Shown here one piece after another: positions 4,105 through 37,733 of a stretch of DNA of 37,968 nucleotides. The stretch comes from a virus, in IMG/VR virus record IMGVR_UViG_3300020185_000122, positions 1 to 37,968 of that record. One strand, 5' to 3'. The number at the start of each line of letters is the position of its first letter. The first letter of the stretch is position 1. The notes beneath the pieces were generated by a model. That model did no database searches, was not told where the DNA came from, and worked only from the letters and a program-made list of their open reading frames with translations. A program made the position numbers and the translations under genes.

Positions 4105-4219
4105 TACAAACTCCTTTTAAATATTTATCGTGCCCACACCACCATTTTTTATAAAAAAACTTTCCTTCTTTTTTACATATATGGCATAAGTGAGGTTTGT
4201 TTAAATTAATCTTCGTCAT
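4070..4219 (-). CDS. Small zinc-finger-like protein, 49 aa
   Basis: Overlapping the end of the DUF3310 gene (by 14 bases) and the start of the 52-aa gene (by 35 bases), this frame encodes MTKINLNKPHLCHICKKEG and later WWCGHDKYLKGVCND. The spacing CxxC...CxH...C is that of a small zinc finger. There is no clear ribosome-binding site and the overlaps are long, so confidence is moderate; the cysteine pattern is the main support. Confidence 0.5.
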   Translation of the reverse strand: MTKINLNKPHLCHICKKEGKFFYKKWWCGHDKYLKGVCNDKGTRNTKEK

Positions 4220-4502
4220 GCAGTTCGTCATCAATCCATTCGTCTTGCTTGGCTTTGACTTCTAAAACCTTTAATTCTGTTTGATGAACTTTAATCATTT
4301 GCTCAAGATACCATATTGCTTTTTTACAGTCATCAATTTTATCAAGTAACTTTTCTGACTTTAATCCTTCTCTACTAATATACTTGAGAGCATTGCCTTT
4401 TATAAAACCATAAAATTCTTCTGGTGTCATCTTGGCTTTTATAAAATCTATAGTCTCAACACCACCTTTTGTATAATGGTCTGGGTTTATATTATCTTCC
4501 AT
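4206..4502 (-). CDS. DUF3310 protein, 98 aa
   Basis: The N-terminal half has the DUF3310 signature: INPDHYTKGGVETIDFI, then FYGFIKGNALKYISR, followed by DDCKKAIWYLEQMI. These proteins are common in phage early regions and are often labelled nucleotide kinase-like, without firm biochemical proof. The C-terminal 35 residues are charged and acidic (WIDDELHDED). GGAGAAATT precedes the start. First gene of the leftward run to 3204. Its promoter must lie in the short stretch shared with pqqA, but I could not assign it. Confidence 0.8.
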   Translation of the reverse strand: MEDNINPDHYTKGGVETIDFIKAKMTPEEFYGFIKGNALKYISREGLKSEKLLDKIDDCKKAIWYLEQMIKVHQTELKVLEVKAKQDEWIDDELHDED

Positions 4503-4569: not shown

Positions 4570-4575
4570 TATAAT
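4570..4575 (+). promoter_or_regulatory. -10 box of the putative pqqA promoter
   Basis: A perfect TATAAT lies 33 bases before the pqqA start. The region where a -35 should lie is AT-rich (TATTTA at 4547-4552 with a 17-base spacer), so it is weak or activator-dependent. It is the only rightward promoter-like element between the surrounding leftward genes and would give a leader of about 27 bases with AAGGAA as ribosome-binding site. Confidence 0.5.
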
Positions 4576-4608
4576 GCAATTTCTATCAACCTACAAGGAA
4601 CATAAATT

Positions 4609-4680
4609 ATGTGGACTCAACCAGTTGCAACTGAAATGCGTTTTGGTTTTGAAGTAACAATGTACGTCTGTAACAAATAA
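4609..4680 (+). CDS. pqqA: PqqA, coenzyme PQQ precursor peptide (23 aa)
   Basis: An isolated rightward gene inside a leftward block, with AAGGAA upstream and a hairpin downstream. The peptide begins MWTQP and ends FGFEVTMYVCNK. Length (23), the MW start, the Arg-x-Gly-Phe step, and Glu15-Val-Thr-Met-Tyr19 match PqqA of the Klebsiella/Pseudomonas type. In that pathway the radical SAM enzyme PqqE, with the PqqD chaperone, links the side chains of Glu15 and Tyr19; PqqB, PqqC and a protease then finish pyrroloquinoline quinone. Both key residues and their spacing are intact. No other pqq gene is in the genome, so host PqqB-E would be needed. Cys21 is unusual. Too short for ordinary gene callers, but I see no better explanation of the sequence. 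Confidence 0.9.
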   Translation: MWTQPVATEMRFGFEVTMYVCNK

Positions 4681-4682
4681 GG

Positions 4683-4702
4683 AAAAGGGGAGTTACCTCC
4701 CC
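4683..4702. terminator. Hairpin after pqqA, shared with the leftward operon
   Basis: GGGGAG-TTAC-CTCCCC (4687-4692, 4697-4702) starts six bases after the pqqA stop. On the minus strand it is followed by TTTTCC, so it also fits termination of the leftward operon ending at 4715. It isolates pqqA as a single-gene unit. Confidence 0.8.
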
Positions 4703-4714
4703 TATCCCATCCCC

Positions 4715-4948
4715 CTAGTAACAAATACTCCCATTAGCTGTAGGCTGACATACTGTTAATTTATCAGTTCCATAAATAAATGTAGATTCATCATTAGATA
4801 TTTCTGCTTCATAATTTACTGAACCTTCATCATCTATATATAAAGATACATCATCTGAACCATCAATAATTACTAAACTCCCATCATCTGTCCAAATACT
4901 TTGTGCACTTATAGAACCACTTAACAACATTAATAATAATAATCTCAT
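4715..4948 (-). CDS. Small exported protein, 77 aa
   Basis: It starts with a classical signal peptide: MRLLLLMLLSGSISAQS, with likely cleavage after SISA. The remaining ~61 residues are very acidic, beta-rich (SLVIIDGSDDVSLYIDDEG) and hold two cysteines (TVCQPT, SICY) that could form a disulfide near the C-terminus. Last gene of the recombination operon, one base after the upstream stop. A periplasmic or surface role, such as exclusion of competitors, is possible; the family is unknown. Confidence 0.75.
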   Translation of the reverse strand: MRLLLLMLLSGSISAQSIWTDDGSLVIIDGSDDVSLYIDDEGSVNYEAEISNDESTFIYGTDKLTVCQPTANGSICY

Positions 4949-36350: not shown

Positions 36351-37733
36351 ATGACAGAACAACAAATTAGAGAAATGCTTGAACAATCAGAAATACAAAA
36401 GCTTTTAAGTGAAGGCATTACTAGAGAAACAAGACCTGATGGAAGGTATGATTCTACTGGGCAAGAAATTATTTCAGAGGTTAGAGAAAATGTACCTAAT
36501 CCATATCTTAAAACAGCAGCTAATGCACTAGAATATAACAAAGATGCTTTAAATTTATTAAGCTCACCAATAAGTAAAGGTTTAAAAGCAGCTAATGTTC
36601 CAATGTTTACAGGCGAAGGTTTTTTAGGTGATTTAATGTATGGTGGTAGTAATAAAGCATTAGATAAAATGGCTTATGGTCATAAAGCAGATAAACAAAA
36701 TATGGCTGATTTAGGATTACTTGGTGTAGCTCCATTAATAGGTGGTGTAAGAGTAGCAGCAAAAGCCGTTCCAAAAGCAAAAGAAATATATAGTTTCATG
36801 AAACCAAGCGATAATATACCAATAGATGATATGAATATGTTAGCACAAGACAGAGCTAAATTTTTAGAAGGAGATATGATTGCAACTTACAAAAACAGAC
36901 CAGATACAATGGGTGGTCGTAAAATTGATACAGATATAGTAAGAGAGCAATTTCCAGAATACAATAACCCTGATACTTTAGTTAATCAATTATTTGGGAC
37001 AACAGGAAGTAGATATAGGTCTCCTGATATTCATGAAGGTGCTTCAGATTTATCTAAACAAATGTATAAAGATTTATTAGATGCACCAATTCCAAAAGGA
37101 GTAACTGATAAAGTAACATTTACAGCAGGTTCAGCAGGTGCAGGTAAAGGTAGAGTAATGTCTTTATTAAGCAAAAAAGATGCTCCTGATGCAAACTCAA
37201 AAGCATTTTATGATACTAATTTATCTGGATTTGATTCAGCTAAAAAGAAAATAGATATGGCTATTAAATCTGGAACAGGAAAAACACCAGTAGATATATT
37301 TTATGTATATAGACCATTAGGTGATGCTTTCAAAGGAACAATCAAAAGAACAGGAAATCAAGCTGAAAAATTTGGTAGTGGTAGAGTTGTAACAGTTGAT
37401 GCTATGACAGAAACAGCATTAGGTTCATTAGAAACAATCAAAAGACTAGAAAAAGCATATGAAAATAATCCTTTAGTTAATATTAAAGTAGTAGACAATT
37501 CAACTGAAGTTCCAAAAATAATTACAACAAAAGATTTACCTCAAGTTAAAACTAAAGCAGAAGCTGAAAAAGAACTATTTAAAATATTAAGAGAAGAAAG
37601 AGCAAAGCCAGATACAAAAATAACAGATGAAGTTTATAGTAGAATTATGAGAGGTAGAAAAGACCCAATTGCAGAAAAAGAAGCATTTGATAATTCTGGA
37701 GAAATACTAGGAGACGTTATCTACGGATATTAA
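36351..37733 (+). CDS. Zeta-toxin-like P-loop kinase protein with ejection-type N-terminus, 460 aa
   Basis: Residues about 40-160 carry a hydrophobic ejection-like module (LNLLSSPISKGLKAANVPMF; MADLGLLGVAPLIGGVRVAA). The C-terminal half has the P-loop VTFTAGSAGAGKGRVMSLL (G260-R268, Lys266), a later Asp in FYDTNLSGFDS, and an Arg segment FKGTIKRTGNQAEKFGSGRV, the order found in zeta toxins, which phosphorylate UDP-sugars of the wall pathway. Gly-Arg replaces the usual Ser/Thr after the Lys, so activity is uncertain. No epsilon-type antitoxin is next to it. The last 417 bases recur, with changes, at 1-417. Confidence 0.75.
   Translation: MTEQQIREMLEQSEIQKLLSEGITRETRPDGRYDSTGQEIISEVRENVPNPYLKTAANALEYNKDALNLLSSPISKGLKAANVPMFTGEGFLGDLMYGGSNKALDKMAYGHKADKQNMADLGLLGVAPLIGGVRVAAKAVPKAKEIYSFMKPSDNIPIDDMNMLAQDRAKFLEGDMIATYKNRPDTMGGRKIDTDIVREQFPEYNNPDTLVNQLFGTTGSRYRSPDIHEGASDLSKQMYKDLLDAPIPKGVTDKVTFTAGSAGAGKGRVMSLLSKKDAPDANSKAFYDTNLSGFDSAKKKIDMAIKSGTGKTPVDIFYVYRPLGDAFKGTIKRTGNQAEKFGSGRVVTVDAMTETALGSLETIKRLEKAYENNPLVNIKVVDNSTEVPKIITTKDLPQVKTKAEAEKELFKILREERAKPDTKITDEVYSRIMRGRKDPIAEKEAFDNSGEILGDVIYGY

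Follow-up and report, generated by a model that had tools for sequence, protein, structure and literature searches.

A 23-codon pqqA gene in a Venkman-related phage and its occurrence among methylophages

Can a phage gene of only 23 codons encode PqqA, the precursor peptide of the cofactor PQQ, and what would a phage gain from a precursor that only host enzymes can finish? This question is raised by a short reading frame in a stretch of viral DNA (hereafter the window), 37,968 bases long and forming an entire IMG/VR virus record. The frame runs on the plus strand from an ATG at 4609 to a TAA ending at 4680. Its product, MWTQPVATEMRFGFEVTMYVCNK, has the MW start and the Glu15-x3-Tyr19 spacing (codons at 4651..4665, plus strand) exactly as the original prediction described, and these Glu and Tyr residues are the ones that PqqE cross-links on the way to PQQ. 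Comparison with PqqA profiles, the check proposed at that time, gave matches well above the cut-offs and over the full profile for both Pfam PF08042 (E=4.8e-9, 36.4 bits; cut-off 21.1 bits) and the NCBIfam equivalog TIGR02107 (E=1.8e-9, 37.2 bits; cut-off 20 bits). The length also agrees with that of its relatives (22-26 residues), and the peptide is free-standing, with its own start and stop. A loose PqqA regular expression found 6 matches in 200 shuffled windows. No solved structure of a relative was found. Together with the intact copies at the same site in relatives and the purifying selection described below, the profile matches rule out a chance frame, and the 72-bp gene is confirmed, at the level of sequence, as a genuine phage pqqA.

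The carrier is a bona fide phage related to the OM43 phage Venkman. The window encodes terminase, portal, and head genes, and Venkman matches most of its head, packaging, and tail genes with ~35-88% protein identity, as well as several early genes and the DUF3310 gene next to pqqA (87% identical to Venkman gp27). At both ends of the record there is an imperfect duplication, in which the first open reading frame (88-417) nearly repeats, with a few substitutions, the C-terminal part of the last one (36351-37733; MTETALGSLETIK...). No tyrosine integrase was found in the window, in seven named phage genomes, or in 15 other records, using a search for this integrase type whose control detected the enzyme in 14 of 14 genomes. 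It is general knowledge that phages often carry the end of the gene into which they integrate, and pqqA could in principle be such an attachment-site copy, by which a temperate phage restores the host gene upon integration. However, the absence of a tyrosine integrase from all of these genomes makes this explanation hardly credible.

As predicted, pqqA stands alone on the plus strand among leftward genes, between the divergent DUF3310 gene (4206..4502, minus strand; PF11753, E=1.5e-20), used here as the anchor of the site, and a small convergent gene with no Pfam or PHROG match (4715..4948, minus strand). The gene had also been credited with a ribosome-binding site, a TATAAT, and a hairpin of its own, of which the first two are present and the third belongs to the opposing operon. 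A Shine-Dalgarno sequence, AAGGA, lies at 4595..4599 (plus strand), and such a motif precedes 139 of 148 unique phage pqqA copies, as compared to ~10 in shuffled sequence. The TATAAT at 4570..4575 (plus strand) may form the -10 box of a promoter for pqqA; it is kept in most of the same-site relatives shown, and a sigma-70 scan of the plus strand reported no promoter-like site and no consensus -35 for it. The T-run of the hairpin at 4686..4703 is on the minus strand, and the hairpin is retained in relatives that have no pqqA (e.g. L492 and L478). It therefore terminates the leftward operon, which faces pqqA, and a role as pqqA's own terminator is ruled out. No Rfam RNA was found near pqqA in the window.

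When 75 relative loci were fetched by the neighbouring DUF3310 gene, 49 of them were found to contain an intact pqqA at the same site, mostly divergent from that gene and ~110 bases away, so that the frame is intact in most near relatives, as expected of a real gene. In two others (L470 and L471) the contig end cuts inside pqqA. The remaining 24, a few of which are distant DUF3310 relatives, have no pqqA, and the absence is clean where the site could be read. A related terminase retrieved 24 longer contigs, none of which has pqqA. The gene hence does not track terminase descent, and relatives fetched by the neighbouring gene are the better test. Thus, pqqA is a small cassette subject to gain and loss, and its absence from both sets of 24 indicates that some related phages can do without it.

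Because retrieval by sequence pattern is biased to conserved copies, all conservation figures were taken from the neighbour-retrieved set. For its 24 unique copies, the window included, dN/dS is 0.087 (pS 0.61, pN 0.10), and 46% of the differences from the window change the protein as compared to 78% expected. No broken pqqA frames were seen at the same site, and the Glu and Tyr are invariant in all phage PqqA peptides found, those retrieved through neighbouring genes among them. Judged by these substitutions, pqqA is under strong purifying selection, unlike non-coding DNA. Relatives sharing an ERF gene encode two divergent PqqA peptides, MWVKPEATVLRFGFEVTCYIFNHSD and MNKNVWTKPVANEMRWGFEICMYVLNK, one just above and one just below the Pfam cut-off, which keep E-x3-Y with changed surrounding residues. 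A host pqqA copy gained by recombination and carried along with no benefit would fit the many dispersed host copies, the small size of the cassette, and its presence or absence among relatives. Yet such a neutral passenger is very improbable given a dN/dS of ~0.09, the lack of broken frames, the retained Shine-Dalgarno sequence, and the occurrence of the gene in several distinct phage groups.

The gene is also found in cultured methylophages. When 50,697 phage records were searched in translation, PqqA was detected in all nine Methylophilales or Methylophilaceae phage records found there, namely Venkman, P19250A, MEP301, MEP401, MEP402, and four Melnitz records, and one Manatee Spring contig also matched; MEP431-434 were not among the matches. 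Three PqqA queries (from the window, from another phage type, and of the Acinetobacter type) agreed on this set and added no further true phage. The matches in 'Acinetobacter phage MD-2021a' (H31 and H32) were rejected as a further PqqA phage, since they sit in a bacterial-looking pqqABCDE operon; the records under this label (L008, CAKLQF020000010.1, and CAKLQH020000055.1) look like misfiled host contigs. A frame of this length had been expected to escape most gene callers, and indeed pqqA is unannotated or mis-annotated in all nine methylophage records; its place is either blank or given to a hypothetical protein, which in the cases inspected is drawn on the opposite strand. The omission is partly due to the PHROGs database, which has no family for the PqqA peptide. 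The papers on Venkman (PMC8163748), MEP301 (PMC8024684), MEP401/402 (PMC10580990), and Melnitz (PMC9004378) leave the gene unmentioned, and P19250A has been said to carry none of the auxiliary metabolic genes of the Baikal phages (PMC7678222), contrary to the pqqA found in it by our translated search.

Among uncultured viruses the gene is widespread. When IMG/VR was scanned with a general DNA pattern for PqqA, all of the 120 matches listed proved to be free-standing PqqA frames, and two narrower patterns, built on codons present in 10 and 7 of the 120 matches listed, each have at least 120 matches of their own. Assuming that the codon shares do not vary along the collection, on the order of 2,000 or more IMG/VR stretches would carry pqqA. 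In all, 403 loci with PqqA were seen, some contigs being counted twice, on contigs of up to 356 kb. The neighbours of pqqA in IMG/VR include terminase, portal, head, tail or tail-fibre, and endolysin genes, and the 356-kb record with pqqA also encodes terminase, primase, and helicase. When 128 loci were compared by gene content, 15 groups were obtained at a threshold of two shared genes (65, 21, 13, 9, 7, and smaller), and nearly all 128 loci joined at a threshold of one. By this measure the phage groups appear distinct, rather than demonstrably wholly unrelated. Nine loci (L013, L020, L022, L028, L035, L039, L046, L054, and L061) carry another type of phage PqqA, similar to RLGFEVTMYFKNR, which probably comes from phages of other PQQ-making hosts.

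In bacterial genomes, the peptide pattern MRFGFEVTMYV retrieved records whose titles name Methylophilaceae or broader lineages that include them. In these host-family genomes pqqA is present in 22 of 22, in 1 to 12 copies and usually several, and PqqE scores over the cut-off in 21 of 22. Several dispersed pqqA copies and a single pqqBCDE set have been reported for Methylophilaceae (PMC4109929). A single residue separates the window PqqA from the product of the first gene in an OM43 tandem pair, the two genes sharing 65 of 72 bases (7 differ), and 43 of 194 phage PqqA peptides are identical to a host peptide. The OM43 tandem pair itself (host genomes L253, L251/L147, L252/L150, and L254) is spaced by ~200 bases with a conserved short ORF of ~30 residues in between (e.g. 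MKLQRRRHTDITFWPFHNWQCTCPICSAKSFN). Its first pqqA is preceded by a conserved leader that could be a regulatory RNA. Like the phage gene, the orphan pqqA copies of Methylophilaceae (PMC4109929) are free-standing 23-codon genes away from pqqBCDE; the phage copies differ in being located in lytic phages and having different flanks.

The original prediction was of a phage that supplies a cofactor precursor and no enzyme, and this holds for the window, which has no gene for PqqE or for a PQQ alcohol dehydrogenase. Among 50 phage records tested, PqqE exceeded the cut-off in none and 49 had no PQQ alcohol dehydrogenase. Most IMG/VR records being fragments, the lack of enzymes is well established for the window and for the cultured phages whose complete genomes were tested, and less so for the other records. 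These phages thus supply only the precursor that is consumed, and host PqqB-E must finish the cofactor. The one exception is the 72-kb record L737 (G023:C1:32500-45000), in which pqqA occurs with genes for a PQQ methanol/ethanol dehydrogenase, a formate dehydrogenase alpha subunit, and a quinoprotein-associated SoxYZ-like carrier. This record elsewhere encodes ribonucleotide reductase and GroEL, and looks like a phage methanol-oxidation island.

Taken together, we consider it likely that phage pqqA is an auxiliary gene for a stoichiometric precursor, which sustains host PQQ and methanol oxidation; its expression, its processing by host enzymes, and the benefit to the phage are inferred. During lytic infection of OM43-like Methylophilaceae, pqqA would be transcribed from its own promoter, apart from the leftward early operon, and the resulting 23-residue PqqA would be bound by host PqqD. 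Host PqqE would then cross-link Glu15 to Tyr19, and a host protease, PqqB, and PqqC would complete PQQ, the cofactor of periplasmic methanol dehydrogenases. Since one PqqA is spent per PQQ and PqqB-E are reusable, the precursor would be the first to run short once host transcription fades, and a small, highly expressed phage copy could keep methanol oxidation and the energy supply running. In Methylovorus MP688, which belongs to the Methylophilaceae, PqqA availability has been described as the rate-determining factor (Ge 2015, cited in PMC11317620). In M. extorquens AM1, pqqA has been reported to be nonessential, a result that does not extend to its orphan copies (PMC11317620). As PQQ is stable, a benefit inside one lytic cycle is not self-evident. 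The medium described for H5P1 (PMC9004378) includes PQQ, by which an effect of phage pqqA could be masked.

The same peptide could act in the opposite direction, as a decoy that occupies PqqD and PqqE, lowers PQQ synthesis, and throttles methanol oxidation by the host. Phages do make inhibitors of host enzymes, and a full-length match to the PqqA family makes competition for PqqD and PqqE possible. However, the Glu and Tyr, which are needed only for processing, are kept in every copy, more than a fifth of the phage peptides are identical to one from a host, and L737 pairs pqqA with its own methanol dehydrogenase, all of which make a decoy improbable. Somewhat less improbable, albeit still unlikely, is that phage PqqA or PQQ serves lanthanide handling, antioxidant defence, or signalling rather than the filling of methanol dehydrogenase. 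Orphan pqqA genes of M. extorquens respond to the lanthanide form and have tentatively been connected with lanthanide uptake (PMC11317620), but nothing in the phage sequence points to such a role, and the concentration of pqqA in phages of methanol oxidisers is directly explained by the cofactor role.

Whether precursor supply extends to methylophages as a class is a matter of even odds in our judgement. On that wider reading, different lytic phages (the 38-kb Venkman type, MEP401/402, the T4-like Melnitz, and the 356-kb huge phages) would have repeatedly acquired host pqqA because PqqA, and not PqqB-E, limits PQQ during infection, and precursor supply would be the core metabolic strategy of methylophages. 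pqqA would then be among the commonest and most overlooked phage metabolic genes, with divergent forms (e.g. L738 and L739) showing its diversification in phages.

Phage copies of host genes that top up a fast-used part of host energy metabolism are known from cyanophages, which carry psbA and others. The product of phage pqqA is different in kind, being a cofactor-precursor peptide that is consumed, not an enzyme or a protein subunit. The original prediction left open whether a phage PqqA had been published. Viral PqqA has in fact been described, in VP_266, a virus population from Lake Baikal (Coutinho et al. 2020, PMC7678222). Its predicted hosts are Methylophilaceae, and its PqqA was proposed to support methanol oxidation. 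VP_266 was a single representative and combined PqqA with a phage methanol dehydrogenase, whereas the window and 49 of the 50 records tested here have pqqA in the absence of that enzyme. A 2026 survey of reservoir sediment also lists virus-encoded pqqA, pqqD, and pqqE (PMC13188868), filed under phosphate solubilisation and, in the parts of the article available to us, with no analysis of pqqA at the gene level. Neither report describes pqqA in the cultured methylophages. Thus, although viral PqqA is already known, its nearly universal presence in methylophages, the precursor-only form it takes there, and the systematic failure of annotations to include it appear to be unreported in the open-licence literature.

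In summary, the OM43 and LD28 methylotrophs are abundant methanol oxidisers of coasts and lakes, and the near-universal presence of pqqA in their phages, if true, would mean that methylophages commonly act on methanol oxidation via an overlooked gene of 23 codons. Phage pqqA offers a cheap host marker for uncultured methylophages, and a directly testable case of a virus that supplies a stoichiometric precursor rather than an enzyme.
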